Assembly (NCBI GenBank): GCA_947474855.1
Contig: CANJKV010000001.1
Span: 45,622 to 109,621 of the forward strand
Reading direction: 5' to 3'
Source of the DNA: Aurantimonadaceae bacterium
Lineage (GTDB): Bacteria > Pseudomonadota > Alphaproteobacteria > Rhizobiales > Rhizobiaceae
Length of the DNA stretch: 64,000 nucleotides
Positions 23,991 to 37,492 of the stretch are shown here, one piece after another. Position 1 is the stretch's first letter. Every line of letters begins with the position of its first letter. The notes beneath the pieces are model-generated. The model was not told where the DNA came from. It worked only from the letters and a program-made list of their open reading frames with translations, and searched no databases. A program made the translations under genes and the position numbers.

Positions 23991-25187
23991 CTATCGCCTG
24001 GCGGGCCTCAGGCGGATGAGGTCGACGTCGTCGCTCGACATCGGTCCGTCGCCACCTCCGGCCGACCGGCCGCGAATCCCGACCGTGGACCGATCGACGG
24101 CCTCCAAAAACCGGGTCCGCGTGAGATCACGCCCGCTCTCGGCCAGGCCGTCCCGCACGAGGCTTGCGAGCAGGTCTGCAAGTTCGTCGCGACTGGCGAA
24201 GGGAGGAGCCGGCCTCACGAGAAGGGTTTCGGCAGGCGCTTCGGCGAGGCGCTCGAGATCGCTGGGCGTTTTCACCGCGAAAATCGACACGATGAGGCTG
24301 GTGCCGGCGAGGTCCGCCTCGGGAAGCGCCAGGATCGCGGCGAGGTCGCGGGCCGACGTCGCGTGACGTTCCACGCGGTCACCGGCATCCCGAAGCGTAC
24401 CGGCATTCCGCGAGATGAAGTCGGCAAGGGCACTCTCGCCGGGGGTGAGCCACACGACGTCGGGCAGCCGCTCGCGATCTCGCGACGGCAGGTGGGCCGG
24501 ACCGACCACCGGGATGCCTTGGGCGACGAGCGCGTCGAGGAGCCCGGTGCCGAAGGCCGTTCCCGGCTCGCTGCCGAGAACCGCGAAGACGTCGTCGAAC
24601 GCTCTGGAGGCCGGATCGGCGAGGATCGAGACGAATTCGGCGCGCCGCCCGTTCACGTCGGGCGAACCGAGGGCGCGCCAGGCCCGCTCCAGGGACAGGC
24701 GAAGGGCCTCTGCTTCCTCGCGGTTGCCGGGCTGCGCCGCGACGGCGAAGCGGACCCGCCCCGCTTCGACCCCGCGTCGCTCGTCCGCCTCGAGCTGCGA
24801 CAGAAAGAGCCATAGGGCATCGATCTGCGCCTCTTCGAGCCCATAGCGCGGCATGGCGAGGGCCAGAGGCCGTCCGTCGCTGCGAAGCCCGTCGCGGAGC
24901 GCGCGGGCGAAGAGCGCGGGGTCGTAGGCGGGACGCGTGGGCGCGGGCTCGCGCAGCGTTCGGCCGTCCACCGGCGGGATCACCGCCGAGCCCGCGACCG
25001 CCCCCGACGCGTCGCGGCCATGGCAGCCCGAGCATCGAAGCCCGGTCTGCGGCACGCCGGCGATCGTCGCAGCTCGGTCGGAGGCTCGCATGCCCCGGAA
25101 GATGGCGCTCCCGCTCTCCCCGCCGATCGCAGGACCGATCGAGGCCAGCACACCGAAAAGGCTGACGACGAGCAGACAGTGCCTCAC
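23991..25187 (-). CDS. c-type cytochrome fused to a periplasmic-binding-protein-like domain
   Basis: GTG start overlapping the upstream SCO1 stop (GTGA); GVPQTGLRCSGCHGRDASG (CxxCH) and AMPRYGLEEAQIDALWLFL; about 250-residue C-terminal part resembles ABC substrate-binding domains. Confidence 0.75.
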   Translation of the reverse strand: MRHCLLVVSLFGVLASIGPAIGGESGSAIFRGMRASDRAATIAGVPQTGLRCSGCHGRDASGAVAGSAVIPPVDGRTLREPAPTRPAYDPALFARALRDGLRSDGRPLALAMPRYGLEEAQIDALWLFLSQLEADERRGVEAGRVRFAVAAQPGNREEAEALRLSLERAWRALGSPDVNGRRAEFVSILADPASRAFDDVFAVLGSEPGTAFGTGLLDALVAQGIPVVGPAHLPSRDRERLPDVVWLTPGESALADFISRNAGTLRDAGDRVERHATSARDLAAILALPEADLAGTSLIVSIFAVKTPSDLERLAEAPAETLLVRPAPPFASRDELADLLASLVRDGLAESGRDLTRTRFLEAVDRSTVGIRGRSAGGGDGPMSSDDVDLIRLRPARR

Positions 25188-25762
25188 GGCGGAGATCGGA
25201 CCCAGTCCAGGAGTTCCTGCGGTTCGACGAAGCCGTCGCGGATCGAGGGCTCGCGGTCCCCGGGAGCCCAGCGCACGAAGCGAACGGAGTGATCCTCGCC
25301 GCTGGACGGGCGCATGGCGAGCCCGTCCAGAACGGCGAAGACGTCGGCGGGATGGCCGGTGAGGAAGATCCGCGAGGGGTCGAGATAACGAGCCCGCTCG
25401 GCTTGGAGGCGTTCCGGCGTGTCGTCGAGCGGGTTCAGCGTCAGCGTCGCCAGGGTGATGCCCTCGAGGCCTTCCGTCCGTGCCTTGCGGGCGACGGCGT
25501 CCATGATGGCGTCGCTGGGCGGACACTGGGCGAGGCAGCCGGTCAGGGTGAAGGACAGGAGCAGCGTCCCCTCGCCCGCCAGATCGTCCGGGAAGCGAAG
25601 GGTCCGCCCGTCCGACGTCACGAGCTCGACCCCGACGGTCCGTGGCCCCGGCGCGCTGCTTTCGACGCTCAAGTCGATCGCGCGGGCGACGCCCGGGGCC
25701 GAAAAAAGCAAGGCCGCGGCGGCGGCGCGGAGCATCCATCGCAGGGTGTCGCAAGCGGTCAT
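25184..25762 (-). CDS. SCO1/SenC family copper chaperone-like protein
   Basis: GTLLLSFTLTGCLAQCPPSDAIMDAV (CxxxCP), TLNPLDDTPERLQ, EDHSVRFVRWAPG. Confidence 0.85.
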   Translation of the reverse strand: MTACDTLRWMLRAAAAALLFSAPGVARAIDLSVESSAPGPRTVGVELVTSDGRTLRFPDDLAGEGTLLLSFTLTGCLAQCPPSDAIMDAVARKARTEGLEGITLATLTLNPLDDTPERLQAERARYLDPSRIFLTGHPADVFAVLDGLAMRPSSGEDHSVRFVRWAPGDREPSIRDGFVEPQELLDWVRSPP

Positions 25763-27600
25763 GGCGTCGTTCTCCGAACGTCGAAGACGGCAGGCGCGAT
25801 CTCGATGCCCGGCGCTTCGACCGACAGCGAGAAGCGCCCGGGCCGGCGCGCGAGCTCTACGACGAAGGTCCGGTCCGGACCCGGGCGGGCCAGAAGGCGC
25901 TTGGGCGCGCCGAAGCCGAGATCATGGAGCCGGAGCGCGAGCGGCCCCTCGGCAAGGCCTGGCGGACGGTTGCGGATCGCCAGGACCACCACCGCCTTGC
26001 CGCCCGGCTCGGGCGGCGGCGTCATCGAGACGACGCGAAGGGAGGCCGGCGGCAACTCCTCGGCGCCCGGTCCCTCCACGAGGAAGCCGGCGCAGCCGGT
26101 GGTTCCTCCAGGCCCCGTGGTCGCCACGAGCTGGTAGGATCCGCCGCGCGGAAGCGTCACCAACGCCGAGAACCGGCCGGGCGCGATTTCGGCGAAGCCG
26201 CGATCGAAGAGCGCGAGCTCGTCGATCGTCCGTCCCGCAACGCGGATGGTGGACGTCATCGCGTTGGAGATGCCGCCGCCTGCCGCGATGCGATAGGCGA
26301 CGGGACTGCCGGGCGGCAGGAAGAGCGCCATGGGCTCGGGATCGAGAGGCACGAGGATCCCGCTCCCGGCATCCGGCGCCGTGAGCGGGCCGGGAACGTC
26401 CACCCGTCGAAGGAAGGGCGGCGCACCGCCCCCGAGCGGCGCGAGATCGAGGACGCTCACGAGACGGGAATCGGCGTGCGCGAGAACGAGGGAGGTGCCG
26501 GCGCGGGCGCTCGCCGTCACCGGGCCGGGAAGCGGCAAACGCGCTGCGATGCGCGAGAACGTCAGATCGACCACAGCGAGATCGGGGCGCGCCCCGTCGC
26601 TCCAGGCGAGGGCATAGCGGCGATTGCCGGCTTCGCCGAGCGCCAGGCCGGAGGGCGAAAACGGAAGCGGGAGGCGCGCCGCGTCGGCGGGGGCGTCGAG
26701 CCAGCGAAGTCGCAGCTCGGGCGCATCCGGGACGGCCGACACCAGCGCTACCCCATCGGCCGCGACCGCTGGCCCGAGGCTCGCCGGAGGCAGGCGAACG
26801 GGCGCAGACCCGAGATCGCGCAGGATCGCCGCCGACCCGTCGGCAGCCGCGACGATCGCGCCGGCGCCGGACGCCGTCATGCGGATCGGACCGGGACCGA
26901 GGTTTTCGCGGCGCAGGAGCGTGCCGTCTCCATTCAGAAGCGCGATCGATCCGGCCGCGTTTTCGGTGACGATCAGCCCGTCGCCGCCGAGCGCGAGAAG
27001 CCCGCTGGGGTTGCGGAGATTCTCGGCGACGAGCCGACGACCGCCGGCGGGAAGATCGACCGCCTCGATCCGCCCGGCTGCACGATCGAGAAGAAATGCG
27101 CGCGGTACCGTTCCGCCGAGCGCGAAGCCGTCCGCCGCGCCGTCGATTTGCGTGACGCTGATCGTGTTGGCGACGCCGAGGCGATGGGCGAGATCGGTCA
27201 CCACGAGCCGTGCTCGACCGTCTTCGCGAGCGAGGCCGACGAGATAGCGCCCGTCGAGCGGAAAGTCGTCCGGCGACAGCGTTCCCGAGGCGCGCAGCAT
27301 GTGGGCGGCCGCCCCGCAGCTCGGCGCGCCCGGCTCCAGCCGCCGGACGAAGGCGCGCGGCCGGAGCCCTGTCGCCGGCCGACCCGAGGTCGCGTCCGAG
27401 AAGGAGACGGTGACCGATAGCACCTGTCCGGCCATGAGGGACGGATCGCCGGCAGGCCTGCCTGCGGAGAAGGGCTCGATCGTCATGGCCGTTCGCAGGC
27501 CCGGAGCCGACGGGACATCCTGGGCTGCGGCCGTCGCGAGCGCCGCCGCGAGGAGGCCGAGGGCGGCGCCGACGCGGCCGGCCCGGTTCAGGGCTTGCAC
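25759..27600 (-). CDS. Secreted beta-propeller/cytochrome-d1-like protein of the multicopper oxidase operon
   Basis: GTG start overlapping the MCO stop; signal-like AALGLLAAALATAAAQ; NHL-like repeats (NLRNPSGLLALGGDGLIVTENAAGSIALLNGDG). Confidence 0.65.
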   Translation of the reverse strand: MQALNRAGRVGAALGLLAAALATAAAQDVPSAPGLRTAMTIEPFSAGRPAGDPSLMAGQVLSVTVSFSDATSGRPATGLRPRAFVRRLEPGAPSCGAAAHMLRASGTLSPDDFPLDGRYLVGLAREDGRARLVVTDLAHRLGVANTISVTQIDGAADGFALGGTVPRAFLLDRAAGRIEAVDLPAGGRRLVAENLRNPSGLLALGGDGLIVTENAAGSIALLNGDGTLLRRENLGPGPIRMTASGAGAIVAAADGSAAILRDLGSAPVRLPPASLGPAVAADGVALVSAVPDAPELRLRWLDAPADAARLPLPFSPSGLALGEAGNRRYALAWSDGARPDLAVVDLTFSRIAARLPLPGPVTASARAGTSLVLAHADSRLVSVLDLAPLGGGAPPFLRRVDVPGPLTAPDAGSGILVPLDPEPMALFLPPGSPVAYRIAAGGGISNAMTSTIRVAGRTIDELALFDRGFAEIAPGRFSALVTLPRGGSYQLVATTGPGGTTGCAGFLVEGPGAEELPPASLRVVSMTPPPEPGGKAVVVLAIRNRPPGLAEGPLALRLHDLGFGAPKRLLARPGPDRTFVVELARRPGRFSLSVEAPGIEIAPAVFDVRRTTP

Positions 27601-30600
27601 GGCGTCGCCTCCCCCGGAGCGTTCGGCGAAACCGCGAGATAGCCCCACACGCCGGCCGCGAAGATGTGCTGCGGCCCGTCGCGCCACAGGTATTCCCCCG
27701 AAGCCTGCGGCGCGCAGCCGAAGGCCGTCATCGCCTTGCCGGGACCGAGCAGCGCCGAATGCCCGGATCCGAAGCCGGGCATGAGGTCGTCATAGCCGAA
27801 GCCCGTCGACACGAAGGCCCGTTGGCGCGCCCGTCCCTGCGGCAGGGCGATGCGCACGGCGATCTCCTCCTGCGGCCGCGCCGCGATCTCGGGGCTGGCG
27901 AGCGGCCGCGTCTGCGGCGAGGCGAAGCGCCGGGCGAGGAAGTCGGGCGCGAACTCGACGGCGTTGAGGTCGTCCCCGTCGCCGCGATCGGGATAGCCGC
28001 GCGTGCCGAAGGCCGCGTCGGCTCCCCCCGTTCCGGCGATGCGCAGCCGGAACGGCGCGGAGCGATAATCGACACCCTGCTCGCCGCGATCGTAGGAGTC
28101 GTCGCAGACGACGCAGTCCGGAAGCGGCCGCCCGCTCCAGCCGGGCAGCGCGGCCACCGCGGAGGCGCGACGCCAGAGGTTGAGGCCGTCCTGCCAGAGA
28201 AGCACCCGCTCGCGCAGGATCGCCTCCGGCACGTGCGTCGCGTCTCCGGGATCGCCGACGACCGTGACGGCGGGCACCGGCACGAGCGCTGCCGGGGCGT
28301 GGCGCCAGGTGAAGCGCTCCGCCGAGCTTCCGGTCGGCGTCGATCCCTTCGGCTCGACCACCAGCGTTCCCGACAAGCCGTGGACGCCGTGCGAGACGAT
28401 GTCGCCGAGGGAGCGGATCGGCAGAGCGCCGAAGGCGTAGGGAATGCTCACGAAGACGCGGTCCGCCCGTCCGGGTTCGGCGAAGAAGGCGTCGAGCGCC
28501 CGCTGCACGAAACCCGTCTGCTCTTCGGGGATGTCGTAGACGCAAAGAACCAGACCGAAGACGGTGATCTGCTTCTGCGTGGCGCATCCGTTCTCCTCGC
28601 TGCTGCGCAGGACGACTCTCATCGCCTCCCCCGCGCCGAGCCCGGCCGCGGCCCGCAGCGCGGCGTCGAGGCCGGAGCCCGAACCGGGGTCGAGAAGTTG
28701 GTCCAGCCGGTTCTCGCTCGCCCAGGCGAAGCCGGCGAAATAGCGCGTGACGGTCCAGAACGGCCGCGACGAGCCGCCCGGCGGCACGGCGCGGGCCTCG
28801 TTGACGCCGACGGCCTGGAGTCCGCCGGGCCTCAGCATCGGGGTGGTCAGCGGAAGCGACAAGGCCACGTGCCGCGAAGGCACGAGTTCGAAGGAACCGC
28901 CCGTCTGCCGCCGGTCCACGTTGAGGGGAACGATCGGCGGCATCAGCGCGTCGCCCGGCTGATCCCAGATCGCTCCGGTCGCGCTCAACGCGTTGATCAG
29001 CAGCAGGTCGGCGCAGTCGCCCGCTGCCACGCGGAGGACGAACGGCATGCCGAAGATCGTGGCGCGCTTAGCGGCCTGCGTCGCCGCGTCGTCGCCCGGC
29101 CGGATCGCCGCGTCGAGCTTGCGGCGGATGATGGCGCGGATCGCGCGGGCATCGAGTCCCGCGAGCGTCGCGTCTTGGCGGTTGGCGAAGGCCTCGTAGA
29201 GCCCCATGCCGGACCCGCCGTCGTAGTAGGGGGCGAGATTCAGGGGAGCCCTGTCGAGGCCAAGGTCGGCGAGCGACAGGGGCACGAGCATCAATCCGTC
29301 GGGATCGAACAGCCCGTTCTGGCGCGGCCCCGCACCATAGATCGTGCCGGGAACGGCGAAGTCGTCCTTGGGAAGCACCTCGCCCGCCCGCACCGCGGCC
29401 GCGATCACCGGAACGCGGTCACCATCGAGGGGACACCACGCCTTGAGGCTCGACGTTTCGGCCGGCACGGTCGGTGCGATCGTCGGCGTGGCTGGAACCG
29501 GCGCGCCGCTCGTGGTCGCCCTCCACTGCCGGCGCAGGACCGGAAGCGGCACGAGGCGCCGTCCCACCGCGCTCCCGGCCGCCACCGGATCGAGGCAGCG
29601 CTCGAACTCGTCGCCCGTTCTGGGCGGCGTCGACAGGCACGTCGCCGCGTCGGCCTCGCCCGGCCCGTCATAGGTGCGGATCAGGCCCCAGGCCCCGTTC
29701 CATAGGGCGTCGGTCGAGCCGAAGTGATAGAGGAGATCGAGCGAAGGCCGGCCGTCCGGAACGCTCGCGACGAGGCTGCTGGCGCCTCTACCGTCGTTCG
29801 AGCCGTTCGACCCGATGGCCGGCGCGAAGGATGCCCCCTGGTTGTTGACGCCGCTGGCAACGAGCGAGCCGAACTCGAAATGCTCGGAAATGCCGACCTC
29901 GTGCGCGGCGACGAAGCCGAGGGGGTTGTCGCAGCCTGCGACGAAGGTCTCCATGTCGTTCCAGAACGGCTGGTTCTCGTAGCCGCCGACCGACCAGCCG
30001 GGGAACTCGCCGGGCCGTCCGCTCCGGCCGAAAGGCGATTCGAGGCAGGCGGTGCTGCGCGAGCGCGGACCGCTCCGCTCCGACTCGTGGCGCTCCGCCG
30101 GAAAGGGCTGATCGACGTTGCGGCGGATGGTGCGCCCCTCGACCGTGAAGATGTGCTGGACCTCCTGCGCACCCTGGATCAGGCGGACGACGAGGCGCTC
30201 GCCGGACAGGGCCTCCAGGACGGGCGTGCAGGGATCGCCGTGGAGGTCGGAGCGGAAGATGTTGGCCATGTCGCCCGCCTCGCCGCCGCGCTGGCGCACG
30301 ATGCTGCGGTTGTCGCTCGGCGAGAGGCTCGGCGCGCCGGCCGGGCCGCAGGGGCTCGCGGCGAAGGGTGGCGGCAGGCCGTTCCGGTCGCCTCCCACGC
30401 GAAGCGGGATCGGCTCGCCCCGATAGTTGACGAGGTAGGGATCGTGGTGATCGGCCGAGATCGCCTCGGGACGTGCCGGCGGCGCGATCGGGCGGCCGTG
30501 CTCGCGCCGGATTTCGCGCCAGCGCTCGGCGAGTTCGGTGACGCGGGCTTCGCTCGGCGACAGCGGGGTACCCCGCAGGGCCAGATCGAGGGCAGGCGCC

Positions 30601-33600
30601 GCCTCGCCGTTGGCGACGTCGTCCGGCGAGGGGGACGTCGCAGGATCGAGGGCCTCGGCCACCAGCCGGTCGAGACCGCGAAGATCGCCGGCCGGTTGCG
30701 GCACCGGCAGGGGCGCGTTGGTCTCGCGCCTGCCGTCGTAGAGTAGCGCGAAGTCGGCGATGGCGAGGGCATATTCGCGGGCATCGACCTGCAGGGGATC
30801 GCCGGCGACCTGCTTGGCCGGGTCGCCGAGCCTCGGCCGGTCCCCCGGCTGCTCCAGCGCGTTGTCCTTGTAGGTGAAGACGTTTGCACGCGCGCCGACG
30901 AGGCGTTCGGACTCTTCGGTAGCGAGCGTCGGCACCGGGGGCGACGCGCCCTGCGCGGTCGCCGGGCCGGCGACGCAGAGCTCGGGCGGCGCGGCCTCCT
31001 CGCCCGGTCGCGGCAGCGGGCAGACGACGTGCGTCGACGGCTCGATCAGGAGCGCGGAGTAGAACCCGTGCTGCTGGATGTTGGAGGGTCCGAAGTGATC
31101 GTGGGTGAACACGGTACGCAAGGTGCGGTCGGCGACCTGCGCTCCCTCGCCCGCGCGCCCGACGAGGCCCTCGTAGCTGAGGATCGGGTCGGCGAACCAG
31201 CGCTGCACGGTGGTCTGGAAATACTGGATGTTCTCCGGCAGGAACCGGTCCAGCTTGTGGACCGTCTCGATCATCCGGGCGGCGCATTGCGCGTCGGTGC
31301 GCTCGGCGATGTCGTCGATGGAGGACGGATCCTCCCCGTCCCGCTTCGTCGCCCGGCCGCGCGAGTGGCAGATCCGGGCCAGGACTTCCTGCGGCGAGAA
31401 GGTGCCATCCTCGTAGTTGAAGCCGTTGCCCGAGCCGTCCGACGAGGTGACGTCGAACTTCACGAGGTGGATATGCTGGCCGATCGTGTCGGTCGGAACC
31501 TTCATCTGGAAGTCGTCGAGCTTCAGCGCCTTGGCCGTTTCGTTCGTGTGCTGGACCTCGATGCACTCTCCGGAAAAGGCGCGGAAGTAGAAGGGTTCGG
31601 CGGTGGCGGTGGAGCGCCCCTTGGTGGCACCGGCCTGCGAAGACAGGACGTTGATCCGTCCCTGCGGATCGTGCCAGCCGGCGCGGTTGACCACGAGATC
31701 GACGTCGACTGCCGAGACCTTGAAGCGGCGGAAACCCAGAAGCCCCGGATCGGGCACCATCCTGACCTCGGCCGCGCGCAGCGGATCGGCGATCTCGGCG
31801 AAGGCTTGCGGATCTCGGGCCCAGGAACCCGTCGCGGCGTCGAAGCGGCGGAAGGGACTGCCTGCCATCACGCTCGGCGCGCCGCACGGATCGGCGAAGG
31901 GAGCACCGGGCGCGGGCGGCGCGCCGTTCACCGGAAAGAAGGCGCGGGTCGGCGGCATCGCGGGCGGGCTCGGGCGGGGCCGCAGAGGCGCAGAGCCGGC
32001 AGCCGCGACGGGCGCGGGCATCGCTGCCAAAACGCCGGCGGTCGGGACGTCGTAGGCACCCGCGTTGGCGTCGGGCGCGGCCACGACCGCGCCGTGGGCA
32101 TCGCGCAGCTTCACCGCCGCACCGTCGTGGTGGAAGCGCATGGCGGATCGTTCGAGGCGGGTGCCGGCATGGGGCAGCAGTTCCAGCCGCAGCTCGCCGA
32201 ACTCCGACGTCATGTCCCCGAGCGCCAGCATGCGCTCGATCGGCACCACGGGGTCTTCGCCCGCCTCGAAGCGCTCGCGCTGCTCGTCGGTAGCCGCGCC
32301 CGGGAGGGACCGCCCCGCCGTCACGACGTGGCGCGGAAGCCCGCCGTCGAGGCGCGGCCGGCCGAGCGCCGCGGCGAGGTTCGGCTCCAGCGCGTTCGCC
32401 GCCTCGGCCATGTCGAGCGGCGGCTGCGGCGTGCGATGGCCGGGCACGCCGGGAATATAGAACGGATAGCCCGGCATGGCCGTGCCGGGACCCTCGGTGT
32501 CGGCATAGGTCGGCAGGAGCGGTAGGCCGTTCGCGGGCAGCGGGACGAGCCCGGGGATTGGCGTTCCCAAATCCTGACGTGCGGCGCCGGGCTCGCGCCA
32601 TTCGCCCTGCGGGCCGACGCTGCCTTCCCGCCGCGGCGTCGTCGCGCCCGCCAGGATCTCGGCCTGCGTCTGCTTGCCGCGCGGCTCGACGGAAAGCGAC
32701 GGCTCGACCTGCCCGTCCGGCAGGAGGCGCGTGCCGTCCTCCAGAACGTCGTGGACGCGCCAGAGCGCCCACATGCCTTGCGCGAAGTGCGGGTAGAGGT
32801 GGCAATGGAAGATCGCGTCGCCCGGCGTGCGGTTGCGATTGCCCGTGCCGAGCGATGCCCAGTAGCCCTTCGGTTCGGGGAGGCTGCCGTCCGGCTGGCG
32901 CGGCGCGAAGCGGTCGAGCCCGCCCTGGTAGATCCTGTAGGTCAGACCCTGCTGCGGGGCGATGGTCTGGCTGTCGAGATAGGCCCCCCGGCCGGAGTCG
33001 TTGCCCGCGAACCATTGATGGCTGTGCAGGTGGAAGACGTGGGTTTCCTTGCCCGCGTGGAGGTTGCGAAAGACCACCTTGTCGTTGAGGTAGGAGTGGT
33101 GGACGTTCGAGGGATCGTCGGGAAAGACTTCGAGAAGCGCCGGGTCGCCGTTCGCCCAGCTTTCCAGGAAGAACTCCTCGTATAGGCATTCGGCGCACTG
33201 TCCGGCTGGGCCGATGCCCAGCCGGTTGGCCAGCACGGCCGCGCCGACCCCGCTTGAGCCGTAGTTGATCGCGAAACCGTCCCGCACGCCGGCGAGCTGA
33301 CCGTAGCGGCCGAGCGCCTTCAGGTCGTCGGCGTAGAAGGTCTTCAGCTCGTCGTGGAAGATGACGGTGAACTCGCGAAAGGGTGCGGCCGCTTCGCGCG
33401 CCAGGCGCCGTTCGCGCAAGCTCGCCTCCGTCCGGGCCACGGGAAGCGGCTCGGCCTCAGTCTCCGGAACGACGATGGCGTTGAGGTCGGAATGAACGAT
33501 CTCAAAGACCGGCGCGGTCTCGCCGGCGTCGATGCAGGGCCGGAGCATGGCGAGAACCGGAACGTCCTGCACGCCGCAGTCGAAGCCTCGGCCGGCCCGC

Positions 33601-34625
33601 GCCGCGTCGCGGCTGTCTGGCACAGCCGCGAAGTAGTCAACCGTGCCTTGCCGCGCGTGGCGCACCGGCCCTTCCGATTTTGGCCAGACGCGATCGAAGG
33701 CGGCGGGCGAGACCTGGCTGCGGAAGGCCTGCGCACCGGCCCGCTCGACGATGAGCGCGCCGAAGAGGCCATGGATCAGCGAGCCGCCGTCCGCCTCTCC
33801 GCCGGCCGGCGCGGCATAGCTCGACACGAGATGCGTGCCTTCGGTCGGCAGGCGCCAGCGGCAGGTGAAGCTTGCGCCGGGTGCGACCGCGCCGGTGCCG
33901 ACGCAGGCCGGATGGATCTCGCTCCCGACAGGCACCGGTTCGAGGCCGGGAATGACGAAGGACAGGTTGCGCGTCAGCGGCCAATCCGTCCCGTAGCCGT
34001 TGGCGGCCACGGCCTCGTCGCCGTCCGCCTCGACCGTCCGACACTGCTCCGCGAAGGCGGCGCCCACCTCGTCACGCAGGGCGACGGAGCCTGCGCCCGC
34101 GTCCTCGCAGAAGCCCAGTCCAGGCTCGCCGTCGGTTGCGGAAGGCGGCAGCGCGGTGCTTGTCAGCCCCGGCTGGTCGGGCCGCAGGAGGTTGGTGACC
34201 GTCACTTCGAGCGTGTCGCCGACATTGGCGCGCAGGACCAGCGGACGCGGACGCAAGCAGTCGCGAAGCCGGACCTCGCCGGGTTCGAGCGGCCCGGTTC
34301 CGCCTTCGGCGCCGGTCATCTCGCCGCAGGCCTCAGCGTCGGGCCCCTCGCCGCTTCCGGCATCGAGGGCCGACACGTTGCGCTTGAGCGCGAAGATCAT
34401 GCCGTAGGGATTGAAGGAGCCGAAGCGGTTGTAGACGATGAGGTGATCGAGGGCGACGACGTCGGCGTGGACGATGCGGCCCACCTCCTGAGCACCCGCC
34501 TCGCCGGCCGAAAGGCCGCCGCTCGCCGTGAGCAGGAGCGCCGAGAGCGCCATGGCGATCCGCGGCGGCCGGGCCGAACCCGATCGGCACCGCTGCGACG
34601 GAGCGAGACGAACAACGTCGAGCAT
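27588..34625 (-). CDS. Giant (2345 aa) secreted multicopper oxidase, putative MnxG/McoA/MofA-type Mn(II) oxidase
   Basis: Signal peptide MALSALLLTASGGLSAGEAGAQ; four MCO copper motifs: ETHVFHLHSHQW (HxxHxH), FHCHLYPHFAQGM (HCHxxxHxxxxM), GQHIHLVKFD (HxH), THDHFGPSNIQQHGFYSALLIEP (HxH). Confidence 0.85.
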   Translation of the reverse strand: MLDVVRLAPSQRCRSGSARPPRIAMALSALLLTASGGLSAGEAGAQEVGRIVHADVVALDHLIVYNRFGSFNPYGMIFALKRNVSALDAGSGEGPDAEACGEMTGAEGGTGPLEPGEVRLRDCLRPRPLVLRANVGDTLEVTVTNLLRPDQPGLTSTALPPSATDGEPGLGFCEDAGAGSVALRDEVGAAFAEQCRTVEADGDEAVAANGYGTDWPLTRNLSFVIPGLEPVPVGSEIHPACVGTGAVAPGASFTCRWRLPTEGTHLVSSYAAPAGGEADGGSLIHGLFGALIVERAGAQAFRSQVSPAAFDRVWPKSEGPVRHARQGTVDYFAAVPDSRDAARAGRGFDCGVQDVPVLAMLRPCIDAGETAPVFEIVHSDLNAIVVPETEAEPLPVARTEASLRERRLAREAAAPFREFTVIFHDELKTFYADDLKALGRYGQLAGVRDGFAINYGSSGVGAAVLANRLGIGPAGQCAECLYEEFFLESWANGDPALLEVFPDDPSNVHHSYLNDKVVFRNLHAGKETHVFHLHSHQWFAGNDSGRGAYLDSQTIAPQQGLTYRIYQGGLDRFAPRQPDGSLPEPKGYWASLGTGNRNRTPGDAIFHCHLYPHFAQGMWALWRVHDVLEDGTRLLPDGQVEPSLSVEPRGKQTQAEILAGATTPRREGSVGPQGEWREPGAARQDLGTPIPGLVPLPANGLPLLPTYADTEGPGTAMPGYPFYIPGVPGHRTPQPPLDMAEAANALEPNLAAALGRPRLDGGLPRHVVTAGRSLPGAATDEQRERFEAGEDPVVPIERMLALGDMTSEFGELRLELLPHAGTRLERSAMRFHHDGAAVKLRDAHGAVVAAPDANAGAYDVPTAGVLAAMPAPVAAAGSAPLRPRPSPPAMPPTRAFFPVNGAPPAPGAPFADPCGAPSVMAGSPFRRFDAATGSWARDPQAFAEIADPLRAAEVRMVPDPGLLGFRRFKVSAVDVDLVVNRAGWHDPQGRINVLSSQAGATKGRSTATAEPFYFRAFSGECIEVQHTNETAKALKLDDFQMKVPTDTIGQHIHLVKFDVTSSDGSGNGFNYEDGTFSPQEVLARICHSRGRATKRDGEDPSSIDDIAERTDAQCAARMIETVHKLDRFLPENIQYFQTTVQRWFADPILSYEGLVGRAGEGAQVADRTLRTVFTHDHFGPSNIQQHGFYSALLIEPSTHVVCPLPRPGEEAAPPELCVAGPATAQGASPPVPTLATEESERLVGARANVFTYKDNALEQPGDRPRLGDPAKQVAGDPLQVDAREYALAIADFALLYDGRRETNAPLPVPQPAGDLRGLDRLVAEALDPATSPSPDDVANGEAAPALDLALRGTPLSPSEARVTELAERWREIRREHGRPIAPPARPEAISADHHDPYLVNYRGEPIPLRVGGDRNGLPPPFAASPCGPAGAPSLSPSDNRSIVRQRGGEAGDMANIFRSDLHGDPCTPVLEALSGERLVVRLIQGAQEVQHIFTVEGRTIRRNVDQPFPAERHESERSGPRSRSTACLESPFGRSGRPGEFPGWSVGGYENQPFWNDMETFVAGCDNPLGFVAAHEVGISEHFEFGSLVASGVNNQGASFAPAIGSNGSNDGRGASSLVASVPDGRPSLDLLYHFGSTDALWNGAWGLIRTYDGPGEADAATCLSTPPRTGDEFERCLDPVAAGSAVGRRLVPLPVLRRQWRATTSGAPVPATPTIAPTVPAETSSLKAWCPLDGDRVPVIAAAVRAGEVLPKDDFAVPGTIYGAGPRQNGLFDPDGLMLVPLSLADLGLDRAPLNLAPYYDGGSGMGLYEAFANRQDATLAGLDARAIRAIIRRKLDAAIRPGDDAATQAAKRATIFGMPFVLRVAAGDCADLLLINALSATGAIWDQPGDALMPPIVPLNVDRRQTGGSFELVPSRHVALSLPLTTPMLRPGGLQAVGVNEARAVPPGGSSRPFWTVTRYFAGFAWASENRLDQLLDPGSGSGLDAALRAAAGLGAGEAMRVVLRSSEENGCATQKQITVFGLVLCVYDIPEEQTGFVQRALDAFFAEPGRADRVFVSIPYAFGALPIRSLGDIVSHGVHGLSGTLVVEPKGSTPTGSSAERFTWRHAPAALVPVPAVTVVGDPGDATHVPEAILRERVLLWQDGLNLWRRASAVAALPGWSGRPLPDCVVCDDSYDRGEQGVDYRSAPFRLRIAGTGGADAAFGTRGYPDRGDGDDLNAVEFAPDFLARRFASPQTRPLASPEIAARPQEEIAVRIALPQGRARQRAFVSTGFGYDDLMPGFGSGHSALLGPGKAMTAFGCAPQASGEYLWRDGPQHIFAAGVWGYLAVSPNAPGEATPCKP

Positions 34626-34934
34626 AGGCCCTCACACGGAGATCGTGCGTGCCATGCGGTGTCCGCCCCATTTGCCGAGGCGGCGCGCACAAGCTTCACG
34701 CACTGGACGACGTTAGGGAAGGCAAGTCCTTGATACTCGAGCAGATCGTGGAACGTCGACGCGATCCCGATCACGCTCGCAACAGACACTCAGACTCTGG
34801 CAACAACGTCCCGCGAAGCGGACACGACTCATCCGACCGGGCACGATCTACATGCTCATCATGCCTACTATACATAGAATTTATTTGGCATCAACATGCG
34901 CAGCGAGCATCGGCCGTCGACCGGAGACCGTAGG

Positions 34935-36704
34935 ATGGGTATTCTCGCGAGTGGACGCTATCGAGGCCAGTTCGATGGCGGGCAAACCATGATCCTGCGC
35001 TGCGAACGGGATGCCGCGAGCGGCGGACTGGCGCGGATCAGCGGCGACGTCGCGGAGCCCGACGCAGCGATCTACTCATTCGTATCGGACCCGCCCGGCA
35101 ACGCCGGCTTTCCATCCGAGGGGGCCGACGGATTCCTGCGGTTCTCGGCCGAAACGGTGAGCCGGACGGGCGCGAACGCTTTTCGCATCACGCTCGATCT
35201 GCTGCCGCGCGAGGCTGGGCAGGTCGACGTCAGGCTGGTCAGTCCCCTGGCCGTCATGAACGGCAGCCTGTCCTTCGTCGACAGCCTGTTCCGCAGCCTC
35301 GTCCTGCGCGTCGACGTCTGGCCCGGCGTGGTCCCGCGCGAGCCGGTCGACAACGGTTCCGAGTGCGGGCGCCAGATCGTGTCCGCCTTGGCCGCGGCAG
35401 GCATCGCGGCGACGATCGAGCCCGGGGTCGCGCCAGATCCCGCGGCGACGCCGCGGCGGATGGAGTTCCGCGACCTTCATGCCTGGCTGCGCAATCTCCC
35501 GCCGACGTCTCTCAGCAACGGCGACTTTTTCGTCAGCCTGCTACTCGGCAGCAGCCTGGCCGGGGGTACCGGCAAGCACACGCAAGGCATGATGTACGAG
35601 ACCTTCGGCGAGCGGGCTCGCCAGGGCGTCGCCGTCTTCCTCGACCACTCGGCCTTCGGAACGCCGAACGAGACCGTCTGGCACCGCGAGTTCGTCTTCT
35701 CCGTGCTGCACGAGATCGGGCACGCCCTGAACCTTCCCCATGCTTGGCTCGCCGAGCCTCCGGGACCATCCGCCCTGTCCTGGATGACCTATCCCGACCG
35801 ATATCCCGGCGGCATCGCCCCCTTCTGGACGGCCTTCGAGCCGGGCTGCTTCGGCGAGACCGAACTGCCCTACCTGCGTCACGCCTATCACTGCGACATC
35901 GCACCGGGGCAGAGCCACTTCGACGAGCGCGCTTGGCCCGGCTTCGTGCGGGGCGGCGGCAGCGACCTGACGAGCGCGCGCCGATCATCATCCGCCGGAT
36001 TGGCGATCGCGCCGCTGAAGCCGCACTACGCCCTGGGCGAGCCGATCTTCCTTCGCGCCGAAATCCGGAACACGGGCGCGCGGTGGCTGTCCTTCGTCGA
36101 CGCTCTCGACCCGAGCGACGGATGGCTCGACGTCGTCGTCACGACGCCGGACGGGAGCCGGCGCAGCTTCGTTCCACCAGCTCGCCTGTGTCAGACGCCA
36201 CGCCGCCGGCGCCTGGAGCCCGGTGCCTGCAAGCCGTTCGACGGCATCCTTCTCAGCTTCTCGCAGGACGGACCGCTGTTCGAGGAACCGGGACTCTACC
36301 GGATCGAGGCGCGCTTCGACGGACTGCAGAACGGGCCGCTTCTCGCCGCCACCGAGATTCGCATCCTGTACCCGACGCGAAACGAGGAGCTGTTCGCGCG
36401 GGCGCTGTTCGCCGACGCCGCTCTGTGCCGTGCCATCTGGCTGCGCCATCCCCTATCCGAGAAGCAGGCCTGGGCGGGCATGATGGACAAGCACGCACAC
36501 CTTCTGCCGACGGACGCCGACAACACCACGAGCGCCTATCTGCACTACGTCGCAGCTCAGGGCTGGCTGAAGCCGCACCGCGAGGGCGTCGACGGCCAGG
36601 ACTGCGGCATCAGCCGCGGCAAAGCCAAGGCGCACCTGCAGGCAGTCGAGCCGGCCAACCTTCCGCAGAGCGTCGGCCGATTGCGAGCGCGGCTCGCGCG
36701 GTGA
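34935..36704 (+). CDS. Uncharacterised protein with metzincin-like HExxH zinc protease motif
   Basis: EFVFSVLHEIGHALNLPHAW; about 589 aa; no obvious Sec signal peptide. Confidence 0.65.
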   Translation: MGILASGRYRGQFDGGQTMILRCERDAASGGLARISGDVAEPDAAIYSFVSDPPGNAGFPSEGADGFLRFSAETVSRTGANAFRITLDLLPREAGQVDVRLVSPLAVMNGSLSFVDSLFRSLVLRVDVWPGVVPREPVDNGSECGRQIVSALAAAGIAATIEPGVAPDPAATPRRMEFRDLHAWLRNLPPTSLSNGDFFVSLLLGSSLAGGTGKHTQGMMYETFGERARQGVAVFLDHSAFGTPNETVWHREFVFSVLHEIGHALNLPHAWLAEPPGPSALSWMTYPDRYPGGIAPFWTAFEPGCFGETELPYLRHAYHCDIAPGQSHFDERAWPGFVRGGGSDLTSARRSSSAGLAIAPLKPHYALGEPIFLRAEIRNTGARWLSFVDALDPSDGWLDVVVTTPDGSRRSFVPPARLCQTPRRRRLEPGACKPFDGILLSFSQDGPLFEEPGLYRIEARFDGLQNGPLLAATEIRILYPTRNEELFARALFADAALCRAIWLRHPLSEKQAWAGMMDKHAHLLPTDADNTTSAYLHYVAAQGWLKPHREGVDGQDCGISRGKAKAHLQAVEPANLPQSVGRLRARLAR

Positions 36705-36714
36705 CCGGGACGCC

Positions 36715-37335
36715 TCAACGACCGACGTGACAGCAGACTCGCGCGAGAGCGGCCCGGAGGTTCGCCAGGATGATCACGGCGCCGACAGCGGCGACCGTCA
36801 TCAGCATCTCGATCGAGAAGGGCGTGCCGTAGCGCGCCTCGGTGATCGCCCGCCGGGCGACGGGCACGAGGCGAATAGCCAGCGCGAGCAGGAAGGCGTC
36901 TCGCTCCATACCGGGCACGGCATGGCCGAAGACGTAGGCCGCGACGAGCGCGGCGCCGCAGGCGGCGGTCAGGCGCGCCTTGCGGGTCTTCCACCAGGCG
37001 GCTCCGCCTCCGTTTTCCGCGTGGGAATGCAGATGCCCGTGGGCGGACGCCCATTCGTTATGTCCGCGATGGTCACGGCCGACATGCGAGGCTGTTGCCG
37101 ATCCGGGTCCGACGGCGGCCGGCGCGATGCCGTAGCCGAGGTTCCTCACCTGCCGCTCCAGCGCGCCAGCATCGGGGGAGGAAACATGGGTGACCGTCAT
37201 CGTCTCCGTGGAGACCGAAACCGAGACGTCCTCCAGGCCGGGAAACAGTCTGACGGCCGTACCAACCTTCGCAGCGCAGGACGCGCAATCCATGCGGGAT
37301 AGATGGTAGCGGGAACGATCGAGAGCGGCGCTCAT
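36715..37335 (-). pseudogene. 5' remnant of a heavy-metal-translocating P-type ATPase (truncated)
   Basis: HMA domain YHLSRMDCASCAAKVGTAV, His-rich linker, first TM segments and ARYGTPFSIEMLMTVAAVGAVII, then homology stops with a short tail LANLRAALARVCCHVGR*; no phosphorylation (DKTGT) or ATP-binding domain nearby. Confidence 0.8.
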
Positions 37336-37492
37336 GGGACAAGTCCTCGTTTGTCCCGCTATCGCCACGTCCTCCAGCGACTAGAGGATCAAGCGCTTGG
37401 TCGATCACGGCTCCTTGAACATCTCGCCGGCTCGAGCAGCCTCGCCCGGTCGGCTCGCCGCGGCCTCGTCGGCGTGAAGGAAGCAGCCGGTC

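Follow-up and report, generated by a model that had tools for sequence, protein, structure and literature searches.

A giant alphaproteobacterial multicopper oxidase of the MnxG/MofA family with its copper ligands in domains 2 and 3

The window analysed here is a 64,000-nucleotide stretch of a contig from an Aurantimonadaceae bacterium, and an uninterrupted open reading frame (ORF) on its minus strand, 34625..27588, encodes 2345 residues of a putative giant multicopper oxidase and contains all four of its copper motifs. Residues 1 to about 45 look by eye like a Sec signal peptide. Likeness to the manganese oxidase MnxG was detected over the entire chain, and six cupredoxin domains are found by profile-profile comparison (hhalign), by profiles and by fold searches of both halves. 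The oxidase, its domains (residue limits approximate) and its motifs are given below, with ligands to type 1, 2 and 3 copper abbreviated T1, T2 and T3, and with pairings to MnxG residues counted along the printed alignments.

27588–34625, minus strand: giant MnxG/MofA-type six-domain multicopper oxidase, 2345 residues, single ORF (MnxG, PDB 9bxa, E=2.9e-57; NCBIfam NF041487, E=3.5e-149)
33726–34493, minus strand: domain 1, residues 45–300, N-type cupredoxin that lacks copper ligands (matches the profile of domain 5; MnxG 102–156)
32676–33443, minus strand: domain 2, residues 395–650, C-type cupredoxin with the predicted T1 copper and half of the trinuclear site (sub-threshold Cu-oxidase_2; MnxG 179–365)
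33024–33041, minus strand: HVFHLH in domain 2, with H529 (T1), H532 (T2) and H534 (T3), invariant in 64 sequences, aligned with MnxG H281/H284/H286
32772–32807, minus strand: HCHLYPHFAQGM (HCHx3Hx4M) in domain 2, with H607 (T3), C608 (T1), H609 (T3), H613 (T1) and M618 (axial), invariant in 65 sequences, H607/C608/H609 aligned with MnxG H334/C335/H336
31026–31763, minus strand: domain 3, residues 955–1200, N-type cupredoxin with the remaining half of the predicted trinuclear site (MnxG 445–559 and 568–604)
31467–31475, minus strand: HIH in domain 3, with H1051 and H1053, invariant in 66 sequences, aligned with MnxG H529/H531
31095–31103, minus strand: HDH in domain 3, with H1175 and H1177, invariant in 67 sequences, aligned with MnxG H575/H577
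29556–30638, minus strand: domain 4, residues 1330–1690, C-type, copper ligands decayed (profile match to MnxG domain 2 at HVFHYHVHQW)
28296–29348, minus strand: domain 5, residues 1760–2110, N-type, decayed, containing SHGVHGLSGTLVVEP (hhalign matches to domains 1 and 3; MnxG 872–958 and 969–1089)
27588–28268, minus strand: domain 6, residues 2120–2345, C-type, decayed, containing YLWRDGPQHIFAAGVW (hhalign match to domain 4)

The four motifs start at 33041 (HVFHLH), 32807 (HCHLYPHFAQGM), 31475 (HIH) and 31103 (HDH), which is where the original prediction had placed them, and its claim of a full T1/T2/T3 ligand set also holds, with 12 ligands that are invariant wherever they are covered. From N to C terminus the order is HxxHxH, HCHx3Hx4M, HxH and HxH, with a stretch of some 430 residues from HCH to the first HxH, and it is, as had been proposed, opposite to that of three-domain laccases and set within a multi-domain ceruloplasmin-like chain. 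When the protein was shuffled 20,000 times HCHx3Hx4M never appeared, HxxHxH appeared 462 times (2.3%), and the two never occurred together. The four motifs are not due to chance, and they are real and complete. Just before the T1 loop there is a CxxC (C477 and C480, window 33200–33186), which is invariant in the family and also present in MnxG. Pfam recognizes only Cu-oxidase_2, below its cut-off, at residues 517–624, and no other multicopper oxidase model was matched, so that the family would be missed by Pfam alone.

A sequence search of solved structures gave one strong match, 9bxa, the MnxG of Bacillus PL-12, and the likeness is stronger for profiles of residues 48–1210 (49 sequences, E=1.1e-92) and residues 1200–2345 (51 sequences, E=9.8e-59). 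The MnxG residue opposite H613 is number 340, which is an alanine in the 9bxa alignment because this entry, according to its title, is the H340A mutant, i.e. a T1-ligand mutant. A single scan of genomes from bacteria and archaea gave 68 loci with homologues, mostly in Alphaproteobacteria, with others in Nitrosomonas, Leptothrix, Sphaerotilus, Thiocapsa, Meiothermus, a Trueperaceae and a Nitrospirales bin. Each copper ligand is invariant in all 64–67 sequences that cover its position, across several phyla. The motif order is identical in 62 of the 62 sequences that span the four motifs (61 relatives and the window protein), including the MofA-type proteins of Leptothrix and Sphaerotilus; the other six of the 68 were left out of this count since the region is incomplete or they reach a contig end. 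The order is thus common to MnxG and MofA types and a trait of the family, and complete-looking homologue frames of about 1600 to 2966 residues indicate that giant size is usual in it too. The distribution is patchy, as a gene search of 41 genomes (its own and 40 relatives) found the oxidase only in its own genome and in a congener, where it is 92% identical, and not in 39 of the 40 relatives, which suggests either gain by transfer or repeated loss.

The AlphaFold2 models of residues 48–1210 and 1200–2345 have a predicted local distance difference test score (pLDDT) of 76.6 and 75.0, and a predicted template modelling score (pTM) of 0.86 and 0.84, respectively. For both halves the top fold match is 9bxa (E=3.4e-21 and 1.1e-25), with TM-scores of 0.37–0.40 when normalised to the full MnxG length or to the length of the half-protein model, and for the C-terminal half the second-best likeness is to ceruloplasmin. 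Homology to 9bxa supports the prediction that the ligands of domains 2 and 3 form one site. The active site had been expected to be completed between non-adjacent domains; this part fails, as domains 2 and 3 are consecutive in the sequence. The motif order shared by MnxG and MofA was published in 2013, in a phylogeny where bacterial six-domain oxidases have the trinuclear (T2/T3) site between domains 2 and 3 and the blue copper in domain 2 (PMC3600357). The reversed order is therefore the standard and already published layout of these enzymes.

Degenerate cupredoxin stretches, also noted in the original prediction, are present at 30161, 29732 and 28394, and bear on the origin of this order. 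Domain 4 contains VQHIFTVEGR, a relic of HxxHxH, and LYHFGSTDALWNGAWGL, a relic of the HCH strand. The domain-4 profile lands on the HxxHxH strand of MnxG domain 2 (HVFHYHVHQW), with H1491 of VQHIFTVEGR, retained in 64 of 66 sequences, on the T1 histidine and with Thr and Glu in the two trinuclear positions, indicating that the degenerate stretches are what remains of the ligand strands in domains 4 and 5. When the family alignment was split into six domains, with boundaries set by hand, and these were compared by hhalign, the odd domains matched each other (D1–D5 96%, D3–D5 59%, D1–D3 5%), as did the even ones (D4–D6 94%, D2–D4 33%, D2–D6 15%), while cross-parity pairs reached at most 12% (same-parity versus cross-parity, Mann-Whitney p=0.001). 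A global hhalign of domain 2 with domain 4 gave no meaningful alignment; they did align locally and through the MnxG profile match. The likeness of odd to odd and even to even domains indicates that the oxidase consists of three N-type/C-type pairs, of which one interface (D2/D3) would still be active.

The description of the motif set as circularly permuted is apt for the order of the motifs; as an event, permutation is not needed, since there are three such pairs and it is a different interface that is active. In a true circular permutation, the gene of a ceruloplasmin-like ring would have undergone tandem duplication and trimming, which put the former C-terminal domain pair at the front and turned the site between domains 6 and 1 into one between domains 2 and 3. 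Such a two-domain shift would yield the observed order, and the similarity to the ceruloplasmin sequence is too low for a direct test of it, but we regard it as unlikely, because the domain parity and the ligand relics in domain 4 agree with a threefold repeat that lost sites and was not rearranged, a scheme that is already in print. The reversed order is explained by loss of sites in a threefold ring: it depends on which one of the three equivalent interfaces has remained active. The parity result fits the published scheme (PMC3600357), in which no rearrangement is needed.

The decayed domain 4 also contains E1576, E1581, H1582 and E1584 (HEVGISEHFE, window 29906–29874), none of which varies among the 66 relatives from a mostly proteobacterial branch. 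In the MnxG counterpart, QHIGISESFTF, the visible alignment matches E1581 only. The cluster might be a second metal site, e.g. for Mn(II)/Mn(III), that has no equivalent in the Bacillus enzyme, though we consider this rather improbable.

Downstream of the oxidase lies a conserved block of genes:

25759–27687, minus strand: ORF of up to 642 residues with the true start inside it and without a Pfam match, a possible beta-propeller protein (in many relatives a homologue lies immediately downstream of the oxidase)
25184–25762, minus strand: SCO1/SenC-type copper chaperone gene (Pfam SCO1-SenC, E=9.8e-8; 25 loci have a homologue downstream of the oxidase)
23991–25200, minus strand, start approximate: secreted protein resembling cytochrome c, with CSGCH and, at its C-terminal end, a domain of unknown type (from the sequence; 40 loci have a homologue downstream of the oxidase)

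On the other side, a divergent ORF of 602 residues (34896–36704, plus strand) has the metzincin-like zinc motif HEIGHALNLPH, and its homologues are found upstream of the oxidase in five loci (L003, L004, L005, L011 and L052). It is followed by an ORF of 217 residues (36715–37368, minus strand) that is similar to the HMA part at the N terminus of P-type metal ATPases, ends abruptly and looks like a truncated pseudogene. Elsewhere in the genome, contig C19:10276-18675 (L070–L075) has a frame of 3467 residues that contains two regions of animal-type heme peroxidase (PF03098, E=9e-43) and belongs to the kind of giant protein called MopA in Mn-oxidising alphaproteobacteria.

The window protein is very probably a secreted six-domain multicopper oxidase of the MnxG/MofA/McoA family, made of three N-type/C-type pairs and with its catalytic site at domains 2 and 3. 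We infer copper binding, Mn(II) as the substrate and roles for the partner genes as follows. The C-type domain 2 would carry the T1 copper, and domain 2 together with the N-type domain 3 the trinuclear cluster, while domains 1, 4, 5 and 6 would retain the fold, with relics of ligand strands, and bind no catalytic copper. The electron donor, most likely Mn(II), would be oxidised at the T1 copper, with electrons passing via His-Cys-His to the trinuclear cluster, where O2 would be reduced to water, and the SCO-like and cytochrome c-like neighbours may act in copper loading and electron transfer.

Several observations weigh against this account. The pLDDT is below 50 in parts of the active-site region, and convergence of the ligands is thus based on homology; the score against the MnxG equivalog NF041487 is 498.4 bits, under the curated cut-off of 3100 bits, which assigns the oxidase to the same family as that MnxG and not to that ortholog; and the giant peroxidase of the same genome could oxidise Mn instead. 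The low-confidence region would suit the view that the four motifs form no single site and are conserved relics in a non-catalytic scaffold, which is very unlikely given that 12 of 12 ligands are invariant over several phyla and line up with those of an enzyme whose activity is known, and that the remaining domains have lost their ligands while domains 2 and 3 have not. The equivalog score and the peroxidase, of a kind linked to Mn oxidation, speak also for a different substrate in the living cell, for example Cu(I), Fe(II) or phenolics, with the architecture unchanged and Mn(II) not the main donor. So do family members in Nitrosomonas and Nitrobacter, which are not known for Mn oxidation. Another substrate is possible but doubtful, as the nearest characterised relatives, the MnxG and MofA/McoA types, are Mn(II) oxidases or strong candidates for this role (PMC8218464, PMC3600357). 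The oxidase and the giant peroxidase in one genome would allow two routes of Mn oxidation to be compared in one organism. The family, in which the structure of one Mn(II) oxidase has been solved, gains a giant member from the Alphaproteobacteria with the window protein.

Three-domain laccases have the HxH pairs N-terminal and HxxHxH/HCH C-terminal. The window protein shares with those such as CueO the 12-ligand active-site chemistry, but it has more than three domains and the opposite motif order, and a protein of the CueO type is ruled out by this order, with Cu-oxidase_2 below the Pfam cut-off. In ceruloplasmin the trinuclear site is located between domains 1 and 6. Ceruloplasmin and hephaestin likewise have six cupredoxin domains, with a fold match to the C-terminal half of the window protein, which differs in having one T1 site and a predicted trinuclear site between domains 2 and 3; a ceruloplasmin-type oxidase is ruled out, as the ligands are in domains 2 and 3. 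McoA and MnxG of Pseudomonas putida GB-1 (NF041487) match at the family level, with the window protein far under the equivalog cut-off, and the mnxG operon of that strain includes a beta-propeller lactonase-family gene and a SCO gene (PMC8218464). The MofA-type oxidases of Leptothrix and Sphaerotilus (L049, L050, L057 and L058) have identical ligands in identical order, but their frames are 1601–1617 residues, about 36–37% identical over residues 48–1210, and the gene neighbourhood is another one. MnxG of Bacillus sp. PL-12 (9bxa, 1217–1227 residues) has the same six-domain plan, the 12 ligands in equal order and the CxxC before the T1 loop, but is about half as long as the window protein, which has long inserts and linkers.
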